This document shows, in pieces, positions 4,489-46,225 of a DNA stretch of 64,000 nucleotides; the first letter of the stretch is position 1; the number at the start of each line of letters is the position of its first letter. Origin of the DNA: Candidatus Jordarchaeales archaeon (GTDB lineage Archaea > Asgardarchaeota > Jordiarchaeia > Jordiarchaeales > Freyrarchaeaceae); assembly GCA_038889235.1 (NCBI GenBank), contig JAWAHN010000002.1, positions 168,288-232,287 on the forward strand. Reading direction: 5' to 3'. The position numbers and the translations under genes are program-made. A model generated the notes under the pieces. That model worked only from the letters and a program-made list of their open reading frames with translations, ran no database searches and had not been told where the DNA came from.

Positions 4489-5019
4489 TTGAGCCAGGCA
4501 AAATACATTTTTAAAATAGTTGTCGTGGGGGATGGTGCGGTAGGAAAAACCAGTCTAATTAAGCGTTATACTGAGGAGTCCTTTCAATCGGATTACATAA
4601 TGACCATTGGAGCAAATTTTGCTGTTAAGAACGTTGAAGTTGATGGAATCTTAATAAAGCTTCAAATATGGGACTTGGCTGGGCAGCCTCACTTTAAGGA
4701 GGTGCGCTCCTCATTCTATAAAGGAGCTGTAGGAGTCATGTATGTCTTTGACGTTTGCCGCCCAGAAAGTTGTGTTAACCTGTTAAACTGGAAAGAGGAA
4801 CTCGTAAAGGTGTGCGGAGAGGTTCCAGGCGTCCTCCTTGCTAACAAAATAGATTTAGAAGAGCATCGGAAAGTCACTGTTGATATGGGAAAAGAGCTCG
4901 CCGCACGTCTTGGCGGGATCCCCTACTTTGAAACAAGCGCCCTAACAGGTGCTGGAGTGAGGGAAGCCTTCCAAAAAATTGCGGAACTCGCATACGAAGC
5001 GGTGACGAAGAAGAAATGA
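4489..5019 (+). CDS. Rab/Ras-like small GTPase
   Basis: A 176-residue single-domain GTPase of eukaryote-like Rab/Ras type. G1 is GDGAVGKT (residues 14-21), the G2 Thr sits in MTIGANF, G3 is WDLAGQ, G4 is NKID and G5 is ETSAL. The G3 motif has Leu-Ala where eukaryotic Rabs have Thr-Ala, but keeps the Gln used for hydrolysis. The tail ends in lysines without cysteines, so there is no prenylation site. The TTG start at 4489 was chosen because AAGGTG lies six bases upstream; an in-frame GTG nine bases earlier overlaps that motif. The substrate is GTP; its regulators may be the longin and roadblock proteins in this window (inference). Confidence 0.93.
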   Translation: MSQAKYIFKIVVVGDGAVGKTSLIKRYTEESFQSDYIMTIGANFAVKNVEVDGILIKLQIWDLAGQPHFKEVRSSFYKGAVGVMYVFDVCRPESCVNLLNWKEELVKVCGEVPGVLLANKIDLEEHRKVTVDMGKELAARLGGIPYFETSALTGAGVREAFQKIAELAYEAVTKKK

Positions 5020-31234: not shown

Positions 31235-33181
31235 TTACCTGAATAGTTCTATTACACTCATTTTTACCGTGGAGAAATCTTTCTTGTTTATATATCCCTT
31301 CTCTAGAAGCAAACTTAGCCCATCGTATATCTTTGGCTCCAAATCTTTCTGTTTCAACAAATTCACTTTATCCATAAAACTTCTAGCCTCTTCTAGAAGC
31401 TTAAGTTCGTCTACATGTTGCTCAAACCTTTTCTTCAAAAAGCTAGTAAAAGTTTTGTTAGCCACGTCATCCACCTTAATTTTCCCGTTACTGGTCTTCT
31501 CAAGGAATCCAACTGGCGGTATAAGTATCAGCTGAGTTTTTTCGTCACTTCTCAGTTCAGCAAGGTAAGCTGTCAAAAAGAAAATGAACGGCTCCCTCAC
31601 ATCGGGCCCTCTAACCATAGATCCCGTCAATGCTGCTATGTCCATTTCATGCGACTTCATATGTTCTTCTAGATAGTTATAGATGTCTTTCAACCTGTTA
31701 CGGTACTTCTCCTTAAGTTTATCTATCAGAGAAAGCTGCTTCTCCATTTCCTCCTTCAAATCACCAATCTTTTTCTCCATGCTGGCAATCACTTTTTCTG
31801 CATGTTGTTCAACTATTTGTCGCTTTTTATGTGCGTCGTTAATCGCTGAACGAACAACTTTCTCCACACGTTTCAGCTTTTCACTCACATCTTTCACATC
31901 GTCCCTTAGCTTTTCCAGCAATCCAGCGACCTCCTCCAATGCAAGCAATTTATCCTCCCTTTTGCCTCCATCGCCTTTGTCAAGCATCGTGGAAGCATAG
32001 TTAACCAAATTCATCATAGCGTTCGAAAGCGACACTATGTCCTCCCTAATCTCTTCAACTTCCTTCCATGCAGCGTTCCAAGCCTGCTCCTCTATCTCTG
32101 TTATCTTCTGCTTCTTATCCTCCTCAACCTTTACGCGCTCCTCACCAATTTTTCGCCTTAATTCGTCAATTCGCTCTAAATATTCGTCTCTCACCTTGGC
32201 TCTCTCATCTTCTAGTTTTTTGATATGTAACTCTGCTATTCCAACAACCTTCTCGCTCAACTTCTTCAACTTCTCAGCATTCTCTTTGATTGCGCCAAGC
32301 ACGTTCAGGAATTTTTCCTTCACTTCCATAATTTCAGTCTCACTGAAAACCGTCCTCAAAATGACTGCATCCTTAATCTTAGAAACTTGTGCGTTAGCAA
32401 GGAACCTAGCCAACTCTTGAGCGTTCTCATACCCGATAAGACCCGGTATTACAAAGGTTTCGTAAGCCACTTTTTCCCTTAAAATTGCAGCTATTCTGTC
32501 AATTGACTTCACAGGATCCTGCGCCAAGCTAGTCTCTTCATCTTCCTTAAGCTCCGGAGGCGAGAAACACTTTATAACAACGGGATCCTTAAAGAGTCCA
32601 TCGACTATTATGCATTCACCAGCATTTGTAGGAACAACCCAAAAAGGCCAAAGCACTTTAACGACAGAATCAACGTTCACCTTCTTCTTAATCAGACTCA
32701 CACTCTGACTTCTCATCTTCTCCAGCATGAGGAAAGCCGCGGCGAGAGACGCCTCCTCGCTCCTCTCACCTTTATCTAAGACTAGGAATGGTGCGCAAAA
32801 AACTTCTTTAACCATTAAACAATAATTGTACTCGTTAACTAGAAGTTCCAGTGACCTGGCAAAGTATTCATCAAGCCTTCCTTTCTCCCTGTAAATTTTA
32901 AAGAAAAGCGAGACTGCTTGTGACAAGAAACTCCTCGCAGCTTCTACGTCATCATCCAAATCAACAGCAACAGCGAATATGTAATCTTCAGCCACGTCGT
33001 ACACGAAAACACCATCTTTCGTCGCCATACTCTGTATTCCGCCATGACCTATTTCGCTTGCAAAAGAAAATATTGCTGCGAGAAACCCTGAGAGAAGTGC
33101 CTCGTCCACTTTACTTCCGCCATAATTTCTATGAAACACAGGGCTACCAGTTCTCTGGAATATGTAAAATTCTTTAATCAT
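31235..33181 (-). CDS. Longin-like domain fused to a long coiled coil
   Basis: A 648-residue protein I cannot assign to a named family. Residues 1-100 form an alpha/beta domain ([39 protein letters not shown]) that resembles longin/roadblock-type folds and closely matches the pattern of the 168-residue protein at 40.3 kb. A second mixed region follows to about 280. A highly charged coiled coil spans about 290-510. A globular C-terminal part (515-648) includes [23 protein letters not shown] in two pieces. No membrane segment is present. Architecture suggests a cytosolic tether or scaffold for a small GTPase; this is inference. Confidence 0.6.
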
Positions 33182-37958: not shown

Positions 37959-39242
37959 ATGGAGGCATCAACGTGCCGCATAAAGGATTTATCATTTCAC
38001 CTAGGAGAGCGCGTTGAGGTTAAGGGCTGGATACACCTAATTCGAGAGCACGGTAAAAACCTCACGTTCATAGTGCTCAGAGACGGGACAGGTTTCACGC
38101 AAGTAGTTGCAAGACGCGGGATCCCCGGATACGAGTCTCTCTCAAGTGTTTACAGAGAGGCAGCGGTGAGCATAATTGGTACGGTAGTAAAAGATGAGAG
38201 GTCACCTTACGAATATGAGCTCAGGGCTGAGCGCGTGCACGTCATCTCACCTTCAAGTCCAACAATAGAAGAAGAATATCAACCCGACTCTTCTCCAGAC
38301 GTCCTCCTCGACAAGAGGCACCTCGTCATAAGAGGGGAGAAAACGTCTTCCATCCTGAAATACGTCGCCAAGCTACTGAAGTACTTCAGGGAGTTTTGTG
38401 AGGAAAGAGGATTAGTAGAAGTTGTCCCGCCACTAATAACCCGTGCCGCGTGTGAGGGAGGTGCAACCCTTTTCCCAATTAAGTATTTTGACGAGACAGC
38501 ATACCTAACTCAGTCGTCTCAGCTCTACTTAGAAGCAGCCCTACCCGCGTTAGGGAACGTTTACTGCATACAGAAGTCTTTCAGGGCGGAGAAGTCTAGG
38601 ACGAGGCGTCACCTAACAGAGTACACTCACGCTGAAGTAGAACTCGCCTTCATAACCTTCGATGAACTAGTAAGCTTCACAGAAGACTTGATAATTCACA
38701 TAGTTCAGAGAACGCTCGAAGAGGATGAATGGATCCTAAAAAAGCTAGGCGTCGACGACCTAAAAGTGCCAAAGAAGCCATTCAAACGGTTCACGTACAA
38801 GGAAGCCGTGAAAAAACTAAGGAGCGAAGGAGTTCCGATAAACGAAGGGGACGAAATAGAGGAATCCATGGAAAGAAAGCTCGTAGACCAGCTTGGCGAA
38901 CCCATCTTTCTAACCGAGTTCCCTGCCAGCCAAAAAGCATTCTACTTCAAGAGAAAGGATGGTGAAATCACTCTCTCGATGGATTTACTGGTACCATATG
39001 TAGGGGAGATAGTGGGTGGAGGCATGCGTGAAGACGATTATGAAACACTCCTCCTCAGGTTAAAGGAAATCAATGCAAACATCGAAGACTATCAATGGTA
39101 CCTCGACCTCAGAAAGTACGGCTCAGTGCCGCATGGAGGCTTCGGATTGGGAGTCGAAAGAACAGTTGAGTGGATACTTAGACTTCCACACATACGTGAA
39201 GCTTGCCTTTTCCCTCGACTAATAAACAGGCTCACACCTTAG
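37959..39242 (+). CDS. asnS: Asparaginyl-tRNA synthetase
   Basis: A 427-residue class IIb synthetase that charges tRNA-Asn. The N-terminal OB-fold anticodon domain (1-110) has VEVKGWIHLIREHGKNLTFIV in two pieces. Motif 2 is SFRAEKSRTRRHLTEYTHAEVE, given here in part, and motif 3 is HGGFGLGVERTVEWIL. YLDLRKYGSVPHGGF and VGEIVGGGMRE favour AsnRS over AspRS. The presence of the anticodon domain excludes the related stand-alone asparagine synthetase. GGAGG precedes the ATG. Confidence 0.9.
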   Translation: MEASTCRIKDLSFHLGERVEVKGWIHLIREHGKNLTFIVLRDGTGFTQVVARRGIPGYESLSSVYREAAVSIIGTVVKDERSPYEYELRAERVHVISPSSPTIEEEYQPDSSPDVLLDKRHLVIRGEKTSSILKYVAKLLKYFREFCEERGLVEVVPPLITRAACEGGATLFPIKYFDETAYLTQSSQLYLEAALPALGNVYCIQKSFRAEKSRTRRHLTEYTHAEVELAFITFDELVSFTEDLIIHIVQRTLEEDEWILKKLGVDDLKVPKKPFKRFTYKEAVKKLRSEGVPINEGDEIEESMERKLVDQLGEPIFLTEFPASQKAFYFKRKDGEITLSMDLLVPYVGEIVGGGMREDDYETLLLRLKEINANIEDYQWYLDLRKYGSVPHGGFGLGVERTVEWILRLPHIREACLFPRLINRLTP

Positions 39243-40116
39243 ACATTTTAAAGTAACACCCAGTCCCCTTAACGTTCTCCGAAATCAAAGTAAAGTCTAT
39301 CTTCACAAGTGGAAGCAAGAATGGAAACAGGACATAGTCGGGAATCTTAAACCTGCGAAGCAGCTCCCTTACCTCTTCAGCAAACTCACTGAAAAACTGA
39401 TTATAGTATCCCAACTTTTCAAGTTTCATACCTGCCTCTCTTGCCAGCCTCTTAATCATAGCACTGTTATACCTCCTCTGGTGACCAAGTTTTAAGTCAT
39501 CCTCTGTCATTTTACTTTCTCCCTCACCTCGCAACAGGAACCTCACGCCTTCAGATGTAGGAACAGTTCCAATCAGGCTCCCTCCACGCTTCAACACGCG
39601 CCTAACTTCCCTCACGGTTTTTACATCGTCCGGAATATGCTCAAAAACATCTAACCCAATCACTAAATCGAAACACTCTTCTCTGAAAGGAAGGTTCTGC
39701 CCGTCGCCGAGAACAAAGTCAACCGGAATCTTGTTGATCCTAGCAGACTTGCATCCCTCCCAAAAATCCTCGTTGGGAAGATCTAGCGCAACAACCCTGG
39801 CGTTCTCACATGTAAGAGCCACACTCCAAACCGCCCATCCGCAACCAACATCCAGCACCATAAGGCCAGGCCTTAACCCCAAGTTTGGTAGCACCCTACA
39901 AGCCCTCACAAAATCCAGGAGGTAAGGATGCCCCACCACCTTATAGAAAACCTCCCTAAACTTCACAACCCAAGGGTGCGGATTATCATGCCTGTGATAT
40001 GACAAATACCTCCCAATTAACGGCTTCTTAAACAACCCGAAACCTCCAACCCTTTCTCCCTCCCAAAAAGCTACAAGGCGTCCTTTTAGATATTTCGTCC
40101 AAATAACATCGAACAC
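39232..40116 (-). CDS. SAM-dependent class I methyltransferase
   Basis: A 294-residue methyltransferase with motif I VLDVGCGWAVWSVAL, VVALDLPNEDF, and motif II FDLVIGLDVFEHIPDDVKTV. The C-terminal 90 residues with LKLGHQRRYNSAMIKRLAREAGM resemble Methyltransf_11 enzymes acting on lipids or sugars. The substrate is unknown. The GTG start carries its own GCAGGGTG. A TATA-like TTCTATAAAAATTT lies about 40 bases upstream. Its stop overlaps that of AsnRS by 11 bases. Confidence 0.82.
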   Translation of the reverse strand: MFDVIWTKYLKGRLVAFWEGERVGGFGLFKKPLIGRYLSYHRHDNPHPWVVKFREVFYKVVGHPYLLDFVRACRVLPNLGLRPGLMVLDVGCGWAVWSVALTCENARVVALDLPNEDFWEGCKSARINKIPVDFVLGDGQNLPFREECFDLVIGLDVFEHIPDDVKTVREVRRVLKRGGSLIGTVPTSEGVRFLLRGEGESKMTEDDLKLGHQRRYNSAMIKRLAREAGMKLEKLGYYNQFFSEFAEEVRELLRRFKIPDYVLFPFLLPLVKIDFTLISENVKGTGCYFKMSKV

Positions 40117-40341
40117 CCTGCATTTGTATTACAAATTTTTATAGAAGTAATACCAACTACGAACTATTTTTATTGCTATATTTTTTACTATGTAAACATA
40201 TTTTTGTAATTATCTAAATTTTTTCTCCATAATTTTTGAGAAAATTCTATTTCGTGAGAAGAAAAAAATATATTTTTAAGGCAATATTTACGTTTTTTGG
40301 GCGGGCGTCTCGAAAGTTATCGTAGGCGGCGGTGTCGCGAA

Positions 40342-40848
40342 ATGATATTAGATGTTTATGTGATGAACAAAAATGGCATATGTTTGTGCAGGCGCAGTTA
40401 TGGCAAAATATCTGAAAGTGAGGAGAACGTGGACGATCTACTTCTAACAGGTTTTATGAGCGCGTTGCTTTCGTTCACCGAACAAATGGGGGAGGCGAGA
40501 CTAGAAGTTGTAAAAACAAACAAGTACCTTTTAGCCTGCAACACAAGTGACCCAATCGCAGTTATAGTTATTGCCTCTGGTGAAAGAGAGGAAGTGGTGA
40601 AAGAAGTTGCCAAGGAAATTTTAAAGCGCTTCAAAGGTCTTTATGCCCACTTACTGAATGATTGGGATGGTAATATCGAGTATTTCCAAGCATTCGGCGA
40701 AGAAATAGACTATGTGGTGAAAAAGATGAAAAAAACAAACATAAGAGAGCTCATTAAAACCAACGAAATGGATGCAAAAGAAATAGCTGAGATCATAATA
40801 TCCGAAATCAACCAACAACTCCAAAAAATAATGGCAAAAAACGTGTGA
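40342..40848 (+). CDS. Longin-like domain protein
   Basis: A 168-residue protein similar in its first 110 residues to the N-terminus of the 648-residue coiled-coil protein: VYVMNKNGICLCRRSYG, then LLTGFMSALLSFTEQMG, then IAVIVIASGEREEV. The strand-strand-helix-strand layout is that of longin/roadblock-type domains. The tail is a charged helix. I use the ATG preceded by GGTG eight bases upstream rather than a longer frame. A TATA-like AATATATTTTTAA lies near 40266-40278. It is probably a GTPase-associated protein (inference). Confidence 0.6.
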   Translation: MILDVYVMNKNGICLCRRSYGKISESEENVDDLLLTGFMSALLSFTEQMGEARLEVVKTNKYLLACNTSDPIAVIVIASGEREEVVKEVAKEILKRFKGLYAHLLNDWDGNIEYFQAFGEEIDYVVKKMKKTNIRELIKTNEMDAKEIAEIIISEINQQLQKIMAKNV

Positions 40849-41217
40849 ATTCCATAATATGTCTCCCTTAAGAAAAACAGTTTTTGAACATCAACAATCT
40901 TTGGCTAAAGTCTAACCTCCTCCAATTAACCTCTTTCCCTCCTTTAGCTGCCAGGTTTAAGACAGTATTTATTCCCGTCTCAAAAGAGAAATCGCAACCT
41001 GTAAGCTTTTTATCCCTAAAAACTTAACCTTACATTTTCCAAGTAGAAAAATTTCCTTAGTATTGGGATTACACACTCTTGGAGTAAAACTTTAAAATCG
41101 TAAAAATTTCGTAGCGTTAACAAGAGTCAAAGTTTTCACTGTGAAACATGTTGTTTCCTAGTTTTACACTTTCATGCACGAGCTCTTTTACTGTTCCCAG
41201 CTCCTCAGCCCAAAAAT
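40849..41217. other. Intergenic region between convergent genes
   Basis: This 369-base gap holds the 3' ends of the longin gene and the V4R gene. It is AT-rich with several T- and A-runs that may end transcription on either strand. A perfect 6-1-6 inverted repeat, TTTCACTGTGAAA, lies at 41134-41146. A 33-codon open stretch on the minus strand ends near 41124 but has no good start. No RNA gene or further protein gene is supported. Confidence 0.45.
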
Positions 41218-41688
41218 TTACTCGCCTTGTTTAACTATTACGAAGGTACACTTGTCATTTTTGTCGCTTCTTAGGCTTTCTGTGTAAACTTTGACATCGC
41301 CAAGCGCTTTACGGGCTGCAGCTTCTATCAAGCCGTGCGTGTAAGTGCAATAGAACTTGCTGGTAATATCGAAATTTAGCATTTCAAACGGGCACGCGGT
41401 AAATATAATCCTAGCTTTTCCGTCACTACTCTCGAATGAAACAAATTTCTCTCCTATCACTGGGGCTACCACATCCTTTGCTAAAAGTTCAACAAATTTC
41501 TCAAGGCTCCAATTCTTCACACCGTACTTTTCCCTCATCCTTGCTTCAGCACGCTCGCCCACGGATTCCCCAACCAACCTGAAAACAGTCCTAACGGTCT
41601 CCTTCCCTGCTATGGCGTCGATCTTGTTCATCAGGTTCTTGAACACGCGAGTGATGAAGCCGTGGAGTCTCACCAAATCTTCAGACAC
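41218..41688 (-). CDS. V4R-like small-molecule-binding domain protein
   Basis: A 156-residue protein whose C-terminal half fits the V4R/bacteriochlorophyll-reductase-like fold: FTACPFEMLN, then FYCTYTHGLIEAAARKALG, then a final KCTFVIV strand. The two Cys groups and the C-x-F end are the usual V4R ligands. The N-terminal helices include VRTVFRLVGESVGERAEAR. V4R domains bind hydrophobic or metal ligands and are found in regulators and in trafficking-complex subunits of the TRAPP/Bet3 type. The GTG start has GGTGGTGAT four bases upstream, overlapping the end of the roadblock gene. Confidence 0.65.
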   Translation of the reverse strand: MSEDLVRLHGFITRVFKNLMNKIDAIAGKETVRTVFRLVGESVGERAEARMREKYGVKNWSLEKFVELLAKDVVAPVIGEKFVSFESSDGKARIIFTACPFEMLNFDITSKFYCTYTHGLIEAAARKALGDVKVYTESLRSDKNDKCTFVIVKQGE

Positions 41689-41703
41689 ACTAATCACCAC
41701 CAA

Positions 41704-42081
41704 CTAGTAAAGCAGCTTTTTAATTTCCTCAATAGCTTTCTCCATCTCCCAAAAAACAAGTCCTAGGTTAGCATCACTTCTAACTAGGACTGTTAAGAGG
41801 TGCTCTTCACCCACGCTCATGACCACAGTTTGCCCCCCGCTTCCAGTTATTAAAACGCGCTGTAACATCCCTTGGCCAAGCTCAGCTACAGTTCTTTTAC
41901 CAATACCTAGCGTGGCCACAGCCATAGCGGCGACAAGTCGTGGGTCAGCCACTTCTGAAGGCAAATCGGAAGCCACAAGCATTCCCTCACTAGAAACCAC
42001 AGCACTACCTAGAACGTCAGCCACCCGCCGCTCTAATTCCTTCAAAACATTAACAAGCCTTTTTCTAACATCCTCAGCCAT
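41704..42081 (-). CDS. Roadblock/LC7 domain protein
   Basis: A 125-residue single-domain roadblock protein. Family features are LEERRV-type first helix (LKELERRVADVLGSAVVSSEGMLVAS in parts), the strand ALPSE-like ASDLPSEVADPRLVAAMAVA, and the C-terminal VVMSVGEEHLLTVLVRSDANLGLVFWEM in parts. In bacteria and archaea such proteins (MglB type) act as GTPase-activating partners of small GTPases. GGAGGG precedes the ATG. It is the first gene of a pair with the V4R protein and lies behind the tRNA gene. Confidence 0.88.
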   Translation of the reverse strand: MAEDVRKRLVNVLKELERRVADVLGSAVVSSEGMLVASDLPSEVADPRLVAAMAVATLGIGKRTVAELGQGMLQRVLITGSGGQTVVMSVGEEHLLTVLVRSDANLGLVFWEMEKAIEEIKKLLY

Positions 42082-42229: not shown

Positions 42230-42327
42230 TGGTGGGCCCGGCGAGATTCGAACTCGCGACCTCCCGGTTATCAGCATCGCCCCACTGTGCTTGGTCGGGC
42301 GCTCTAACCAGGCTGAGCCACGGGCCC
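42230..42327 (-). tRNA. tRNA-Ile (GAU anticodon) with an intron
   Basis: The acceptor stem GGGCCCG pairs with CGGGCCC, the discriminator is A and CCA is encoded. The D-arm is GCTC...GAGC with loop AGCCTGGTTA. The T-arm is GCGAG-TTCGAAT-CTCGC. After removing a 20-base insertion the anticodon arm is CCCGG-CTGATAA-CCGGG, giving anticodon GAT. Mature length is 75 bases before CCA. The insertion lies inside the 5' strand of the anticodon stem, which is a non-canonical position. A TATA-like box precedes the gene. Confidence 0.95.
42276..42295 (-). other. Non-canonical tRNA intron, position 30/31, BHB motif
   Basis: The 20-base insertion (minus strand ACCAAGCACAGTGGGGCGAT) folds with flanking exon into a bulge-helix-bulge. 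The central helix is CGCC (exon) with GGCG (intron). The bulges are CG/A at the 5' site and AT/G at the 3' site, cut after the second base. The inner stem is CCA with TGG closing a seven-base loop. Removing it restores a perfect five-pair anticodon stem. Splicing at such a site normally needs a broad-specificity heteromeric endonuclease. Confidence 0.88.
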
Positions 42328-45023: not shown

Positions 45024-45827
45024 TTACTGTTTTTCTTTCTTTTGAATCACTTTGTCGAGTATGCCAAAGATTCCAAGTGCTAGGAACACGAAGGATACAA
45101 GTGTGATTATTAGCGAAACAAGGGATCTTGTCTCTATCATTAAGGATGACACTAAGAAACCCCAGATAATAAGTGTTGTGAGGTACAATGCAAAGCCTAG
45201 TGATCTGCCACTCTTGTTCGACCATGCCAGGTAGTAAAATAGGATCATCGTCGGAATACCGATCGCGCTATCGTACATGGAAAGTGTAATTAGCGGAGTG
45301 TTTGTAACCAGTATTTCCGCTGGGTCGAGAAGCAAGTTTATCATTATAGCCACTTGTTGGTTCGGACTTAAGAAGTTCGGAAAAACGGTTTTCAGAATTA
45401 TAAACCATGGATTACCCATCCCTGCCATGTATAGGTAAGATCTGACGAGAATCATCGTTAAACTATATGTCACGCTTCCATAATTGTAGTGAAGAAGTGC
45501 CACTAGCACTATTATTGCAGGAAGCAAGTATACTTGTTTAACTCCGAGCAACACGACTCCAATAGTCGTTACAAATCCCATTGCAATTAGAGCGAGAATT
45601 GCCATTGTATGAAGCAGGTCTAATGTGACAACGTCTAATACTAGCAGGATATTTGCCATCGCCATTAATACCATGAAAGTAAAGTATATGGTAAATAGCA
45701 GTGTAATTTTCTCGCGTGTCTCTAGGTATCTCCTAAAAAGTTGCACCGCGCAGGAACCTAGAATTACTGCGTGCAAAAAGTACAATATAGGTTCATACGT
45801 CCCTGTATTTAATATAGATACAGGCAT
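45024..45827 (-). CDS. Seven-transmembrane protein coupled to a roadblock-like gene
   Basis: A 267-residue membrane protein with about seven to eight hydrophobic helices and a lysine-rich cytoplasmic tail (LDKVIQKKEKQ). No transporter or enzyme family was recognised. Its ATG overlaps the stop of the upstream roadblock-like gene (TAATG), with GGAGGAT seven bases before it, so the two proteins are made from one transcript with coupled translation. The pairing suggests that the membrane protein is a receptor or anchor for a soluble regulator (inference). Confidence 0.65.
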   Translation of the reverse strand: MPVSILNTGTYEPILYFLHAVILGSCAVQLFRRYLETREKITLLFTIYFTFMVLMAMANILLVLDVVTLDLLHTMAILALIAMGFVTTIGVVLLGVKQVYLLPAIIVLVALLHYNYGSVTYSLTMILVRSYLYMAGMGNPWFIILKTVFPNFLSPNQQVAIMINLLLDPAEILVTNTPLITLSMYDSAIGIPTMILFYYLAWSNKSGRSLGFALYLTTLIIWGFLVSSLMIETRSLVSLIITLVSFVFLALGIFGILDKVIQKKEKQ

Positions 45828-46225
45828 TACCATATCCTCCTTTCTTTCTCTCTAATCTCGTCAAGTATACTTTTCTTGTCTTTTATGTACTTCTCAATGA
45901 CATAGAAATCGGATAGTACGTTTATTCTGCTTCTAAGATTTATTGAGGCAAGCCTTGAAATATGCGGATCCTGCATGATCACTATGACCCCGACTTTATC
46001 CGTCACTTTCATGAGAAATGAGTTGTTGTTGTGTATGGTGTCTCCTATATGCATGTCTCTTAAAGGAAAATTCTTATAGTATTCGAGGAGTTCGGCGGGG
46101 ATTTCCCCCCTTTCACCCCAAATCTTGTTGTTAATGTCCACTATTGCTACAGCTAAAGGTTTCCACCTTCCAATATTTGTCTCAACAAGTGAAACCAGTT
46201 TATCTGTATCAATTTCACTACTCAA
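45827..46225 (-). CDS. Roadblock/profilin-like fold regulator
   Basis: A 132-residue soluble protein with an N-terminal helix, then strands LAVAIVDINNKIWGERG and SFLMKVTDKVGVIVIMQD, a helix SRLASINLRSRINVLSDF, and a charged C-terminal helix. This order resembles roadblock/longin-type signalling domains, but similarity to classical roadblock proteins is weak. The TTG start follows GGAGG by about seven bases. A TATA-like box (GTTATATACAT, near 46246-46256 on the minus strand) precedes it. Confidence 0.5.
   Translation of the reverse strand: MSSEIDTDKLVSLVETNIGRWKPLAVAIVDINNKIWGERGEIPAELLEYYKNFPLRDMHIGDTIHNNNSFLMKVTDKVGVIVIMQDPHISRLASINLRSRINVLSDFYVIEKYIKDKKSILDEIREKERRIW

Follow-up and report, generated by a model that had tools for sequence, protein, structure and literature searches.

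Three genes lie within 1.8 kb of one another in the window, the whole stretch of 64,000 nucleotides analysed here, which comes from an Asgard archaeon related to Ca. Jordarchaeum whose genome assembly comprises 2.14 Mb in eight contigs. Asgard archaea are the closest prokaryotic relatives of eukaryotes. The folds encoded by the three genes are those from which TRAPP and Ragulator, two membrane-trafficking complexes of eukaryotes, are built. A roadblock gene and a V4R-type gene, whose frames abut, form a pair, and 369 bp separate the V4R gene from a longin gene that converges with the pair (Table 1). The initial annotation had described a longin gene next to a coupled, converging roadblock-V4R pair at this place, and the description is confirmed by family matches for all three proteins and by conservation of the trio.

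Table 1. Coordinates of the gene trio in the window
Feature	Position	Strand	Remarks
Longin-domain protein	40342..40848	+	168 aa; convergent with the roadblock-V4R pair; TRAPPC1/Bet5- and Trs23-like by fold
V4R/MetOD1-type protein, predicted TRAPP fold	41218..41688	-	156 aa from GTG start
Roadblock/LC7 protein	41704..42081	-	125 aa; first gene of the roadblock-V4R pair

All three are real genes. Read by eye, ribosome-binding-like runs are present ahead of each of the three starts, and that of the roadblock gene is a GGAGGG. The V4R open reading frame extends back to a TTG at 41703 (frame 41218-41703, minus strand). The GTG at 41688 is more likely to be the start than this TTG, because the V4R proteins of genus-mates begin with MSEDLERL or MSGDLERL and because a Shine-Dalgarno-like run, GGTGGTGAT, is seen by eye before the GTG.

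Several other features are found around the trio. Just upstream of the roadblock gene is a tRNA gene (42230-42327, minus strand) with a four-base anticodon that ARAGORN could not assign; by eye the gene seems to contain an intron and possibly encodes tRNA-Ile(GAU). In genus-mates, a gene for a TrmB-like regulator, recognized by eye from its N-terminus, is situated between the methyltransferase and longin genes (L068 7931-8704 and L069 10391-11164) and is absent from the window (39232-40300). Two overlapping frames at 45024-46225 (minus strand) encode a membrane protein with a weak match to DUF5985 and a 132-aa protein without a Pfam match, both of which are conserved in the genus.

The roadblock protein is a member of Pfam Robl_LC7 (E 8.6e-11, 41.9 bits against a cut-off of 23 bits), and the PDB sequences that match it best belong to roadblock proteins (7f8m, 9jue and 7yh1). 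Orthologs in the genus-mates G002 and G003 display 83-85% identity. There are 12 roadblock matches in the host genome.

The V4R protein matches the MetOD1 family barely over the cut-off (E 3.4e-5, 24.4 bits against 23.8), and MetOD1 is matched in 10 of 11 of its relatives in Pfam. As similarity of MetOD1 to V4R, HNOB and ATC hydrolase has been described (PMC5847659), the V4R label is right at the superfamily level. The Pfam scan gave no match to the TRAPP family for the window protein or its relatives. An AlphaFold model (m35915b943506; pLDDT 82, pTM 0.78) displays N-terminal helices and a four-stranded sheet. In Foldseek searches with this model, ranks 1-16 are all TRAPP subunits (Bet3/TRAPPC3, Trs33, Trs31 and Thorarchaeal TRAPPC3), with TRAPPC3/Bet3 first and a best E of 1.6e-5; BcsD, further TRAPP chains and H-NOX come next. 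There are 29 PDB fold matches with E < 0.001, nearly all of them TRAPP subunits, plus BcsD. TM-scores to TRAPP are moderate, about 0.5-0.6. A profile of 11 V4R sequences compared with the PDB also places Thorarchaeal TRAPPC3 (7yh3, 7yh2) first, with a weak E of 0.017. By family match and predicted fold, the window protein belongs to the V4R / TRAPP / H-NOX superfamily.

The match of the longin protein to Sybindin, the family of TRAPPC1 and TRAPPC4, is likewise barely over the cut-off (E 1.7e-5, 25.3 bits against 25). Its AlphaFold model (m066fbcf24e83; pLDDT 83.9) has a longin topology. The top two Foldseek matches, 2j3t_D and 2j3t_C, are from the Bet3-Trs33-Bet5-Trs23 complex and represent the TRAPP longins Bet5 and Trs23; further fold matches are AP, COPI, MglB, MON1 and Ragulator chains. 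When 28 Asgard longins were combined into a profile and compared with the PDB, BET5 ranked first (E 0.003), and MON1A and TRAPPC1 were among the entries that followed. The protein can thus be assigned, by its family match and modelled fold, to the TRAPPC1/TRAPPC4 (Sybindin) type. Orthologs in G002 and G003 display 63-64% identity. At another location in the window (31235-33181, minus strand), a 648-aa protein is encoded that has an N-terminal longin domain (HMM E 2.6e-22) followed by weak coiled-coil-type Pfam matches; a relative in G003 adjoins the same Alba-like and lyase-like genes.

The three folds had been read correctly from the letters. The likeness to TRAPP that had been proposed is also upheld by the fold searches, in that the V4R and longin proteins are similar to the two subunit types that contact each other in the TRAPP core. 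The proposal of an archaeal precursor of the eukaryotic complexes fares less well, as sequence similarity to eukaryotic TRAPP is weak.

The same trio arrangement is found in G002 and G003. About 20 kb around it is also syntenic in the genus, and conservation of the trio among genus-mates is therefore weak evidence by itself. When GTDB genomes were scanned with the V4R alignment, ten relatives were detected, all in Asgard archaea (Jord-, Loki- and Helarchaeota); outside Asgard the scan used two short conserved peptides, with which distant relatives would be missed. This V4R subfamily is represented by 27 copies in 24 of 228 Asgard genomes at E < 1e-30, and there is a clear drop from these values to 1e-8 for other V4R proteins. 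The taxonomic spread covers the families f1, f3, f18 and f25-f29 and the Jord-, Loki- and Helarchaeota, most genomes being metagenome-assembled. At the HMM-annotated loci, 24 of the 27 V4R copies, in 21 of the 24 genomes, are immediately preceded by a roadblock gene, with a gap of -26 to +18 bp. A longin gene is present within about 2 kb downstream of V4R in every one of these 21 paired genomes. It is on the same strand in 17 of them and inverted in G145 and three Jordarchaeum genomes; in loci of Loki- and Helarchaeota the roadblock gene comes first, V4R second and longin third, all on a single strand and usually as an operon. The G145 longin (L131 6492-7262) is reversed at its place in a cluster whose other genes share one strand, and the Jordarchaeum longin is likewise inverted relative to the pair.

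The roadblock neighbour is specific to this subfamily among the loci compared: none of 20 control loci, which encode more distant V4R/TRAPPC3-like proteins, has one. G126, G128 and G136 each have two roadblock-V4R pairs in, or close to, a tandem arrangement, and the two copies in G126 and in G136 are sisters in the roadblock tree. Retention of the trio in genus-mates and in several other Asgard families exceeds chance. A conserved neighbourhood, which the initial annotation had named as its own test, is borne out in 21 of the 24 genomes with this V4R subfamily.

The V4R copies without an adjoining roadblock gene are those of G005, G006 and G192, and they form one clade in the V4R tree (100/99). 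G005 and G006 are Jordarchaeia of family f2 in which V4R is kept and no roadblock gene was found beside it; the G005 copy is near a contig end. The G192 copy (L137, G192:C247) nests inside the f2 Jordarchaeia, and the genome to which it is assigned is binned in f29 and is 9% contaminated. L137 is likely a misbinned contig. The single clade and the placement of the G192 copy suggest that the three exceptions represent a single loss or move in one Jordarchaeia lineage, plus the misbinned contig.

The cluster longins of Loki- and Helarchaeota carry a C-terminal roadblock domain (97.3%, E 1.6e-11). The Jordarchaeum longin is encoded on the opposite strand and is without this domain. Grouping of the Jordarchaeum and Loki longins as one clade is neither rejected nor supported (p-AU 0.44) by an exploratory alignment, from which distant rows and a mislabelled longin-GTPase were removed after an earlier test that included the mislabelled row had rejected the clade (p 0.02). 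A clade of the window roadblock and the Loki roadblocks is also neither rejected nor supported (p-AU 0.34). Either the whole trio is ancestral or the roadblock-V4R pair gained a longin more than once.

An uncharacterised fourth gene, encoding about 135-176 aa, is found in 17 of the 18 paired genomes that are not Jordarchaeum. It follows the longin gene in one group and lies between V4R and longin in families f18, f28 and f29. The genes represent 17 distinct sequences, examples of which are at L088 7256-7666, L094 4245-4664 and L141 6437-6949. The four members scanned have no convincing Pfam match. Identification of the fourth gene as a roadblock protein was rejected, with no Pfam hit and a probability of only 5%.

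None of the 21 clusters contains a GTPase gene, and the MglA/MglB type of operon, in which a roadblock gene is next to a Ras-like GTPase gene, is thus not found at these loci. Within distances of up to about 3 kb, a Ras-like GTPase is near 4 of the 21 clusters compared with 2 of the 20 control loci, which represents no enrichment. The cluster therefore does not name its target. A Rab-like GTPase at 4489-5019, 36 kb away, had been mentioned in connection with the trio; with these counts it has no special claim, and the link to it or to any neighbouring GTPase was dropped. According to the accessible part of a study of Asgard regulators, the genes for small GTPases in MK-D1 do not, as a rule, share operons with roadblock or TRAPPC3 genes, and genome layout is of little help in matching Asgard GTPases to their regulators (Tran et al., 2024; PMC10933270). 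One of the genomes, G132, was considered as the cultured MK-D1 strain and not identified as such, since the presumed MK-D1 roadblock sequence (7yh1) reaches at most about 31% identity in it.

That the trio works as a unit is indicated by its preserved gene order, by reading frames that abut or overlap and by the tandem copies of the roadblock-V4R pair. Given that the same trio is found side by side in several distantly related Asgard lineages, roadblock, V4R and longin probably constitute one working unit. We lean towards the view that the three proteins are subunits of one Asgard-specific complex of TRAPP/Ragulator-type folds that controls a GTPase encoded elsewhere. In such a complex, roadblock and longin dimers might be the platform on which a GTPase of the Ras superfamily docks, in the manner of MglB, Ragulator and the TRAPP longins. 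A V4R dimer would be the flanking, structural subunit, similar to TRAPPC3, and its cysteines and cavity could serve as the metal- or ligand-sensing part. The complex as a whole might set the nucleotide state or the location of the GTPase.

A more far-reaching version is a primordial TRAPP-like complex consisting of a roadblock dimer, a TRAPP-fold dimer and a longin, genetically fixed before eukaryotes and regulating a Rab/Rag-like GTPase. We regard it as rather doubtful. If true, it would mean that the TRAPP-fold and longin subunits were joined in one complex before eukaryogenesis. Roadblock, longin and GTPase proteins number in the dozens in Asgard genomes, and a fixed cluster singles out particular partners that can be put to the test. 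If the trio does form a complex, prokaryotes offer a way to study how TRAPP-fold and longin subunits were joined.

Another possibility, conceivable although not one we would expect, is a sensing unit that functions without a GTPase. Here the V4R/MetOD1 cavity and cysteines would sense a small molecule or metal, the roadblock protein would be the dimeric scaffold that receives the state and the longin an accessory adaptor. Cys104 and Cys152 (TTG numbering) are present in all 27 V4R homologs and Cys119 in 26 of the 27, which agrees with the cluster of cysteines that has been reported in MetOD1 and V4R (PMC5847659). The nearest Pfam families are MetOD1 and ATC hydrolase, and MetOD1 is an output domain of response regulators (PMC5847659); in addition, the accessible text on TRAPPC3 argues for ligand binding (PMC10933270). 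Also consistent with a sensing unit are the roadblock-V4R pair as the constant core (24 of 27 copies), which has been duplicated without the longin, and the absence of GTPase linkage at the clusters. However, all paired genomes have a longin next to the pair, the roadblock and longin folds are classic platforms for GTPases, and several related roadblock genes outside the cluster adjoin Arf/MglA-like GTPases (L005, L007-L010, L014 and L020).

A Ragulator-like scaffold or membrane adaptor is unlikely. In this case the roadblock and longin proteins would tether proteins to a membrane and V4R would hold a lipid, with no action on nucleotide exchange. The small chains of Ragulator, AP and COPI are among the longin fold matches, TRAPPC3 binds palmitate according to the accessible text of PMC10933270, and a scaffold of several subunits is suggested by the fourth gene and by the fusion of longin and roadblock domains. 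The top fold and sequence matches, however, are to TRAPP subunits and not to Ragulator, and an unsystematic look at the three proteins noticed no membrane anchor. Finally, a chance adjacency held by genus synteny, with the three proteins acting separately, is highly improbable and was rejected: the many roadblock and longin genes per Asgard genome and the syntenic surroundings in the genus would favour it, but the trio recurs in Lokiarchaeota, Helarchaeota and further families, where the flanking genes are different, frames abut and pairs have been duplicated, and the 20 other V4R loci have no roadblock neighbour.

The cluster can be compared with several known systems. It resembles the eukaryotic TRAPP core (TRAPPC3/Bet3, TRAPPC5/C6, TRAPPC1/Bet5 and TRAPPC4/Trs23) in that genes for a TRAPP-fold protein and a Sybindin-type longin are side by side, and the best fold matches of both are TRAPP chains. 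It differs in its weak sequence match, in having roadblock as the constant partner and in a V4R protein that is nearer to MetOD1. Thorarchaeota TRAPPC3 and Asgard roadblock proteins display the same folds within Asgard, and their dimers resemble those of TRAPP and Ragulator, respectively; in one Heimdall protein, a longin and a TRAPPC3 domain are joined in a single chain (Tran et al., 2024; PMC10933270). The Thorarchaeota protein is of a different V4R subfamily, however, and the accessible part of that paper reports no roadblock-V4R-longin cluster. With Ragulator/LAMTOR and MglB, whose roadblock dimers dock small GTPases, the cluster shares the roadblock protein and, in Loki- and Helarchaeota, a longin fused to a second roadblock domain, but it is without a Rag or MglA gene. 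The general annotation of the cluster genes shows one roadblock gene, to which Loki- and Helarchaeota add the fused domain, and brought up neither a LAMTOR1-like protein nor a Rag.

Actinobacterial conservons (CvnA-D), with a kinase-like protein, a roadblock protein, CvnC and a Ras-like GTPase, are also conserved operons around a roadblock protein, as described in the accessible part of PMC13343842; in the Asgard cluster there is no kinase or GTPase gene and V4R and longin are found instead. The V4R sensor domains of the MetOD1 and PoxR type have the conserved cysteine cluster and belong to the same superfamily. Unlike these, the Asgard V4R is a stand-alone protein paired with a roadblock gene, and is neither the output domain of a response regulator nor the input domain of a transcription factor. 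Each of the three domains is already known. No description of a roadblock-V4R-longin cluster was found in the literature searched, the coverage of which excluded most subscription journals.

Other roadblock and longin genes of interest are found in the host genome. About 14 kb past the end of the window (L080 7935-9984; G000:C2) is a row, on one strand, of a LAMTOR5-like roadblock gene, a roadblock gene, an Arf/MglA-like GTPase gene and another roadblock gene. At L070 7544-10707 (G000:C1, ~44.5-47.7 kb), a second convergent longin/roadblock pair is present without V4R. This pair (46.7-47.7 kb) was rejected as a duplicate of the window trio, as the V4R gene is absent and, in the trees, its longin is not the sister of the window longin and its roadblock is in another clade. 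The pair is kept in all four genomes of the genus, and its neighbours are a GNAT-like gene and two proteins with N-termini that look longin-like by eye and have no Pfam hit.
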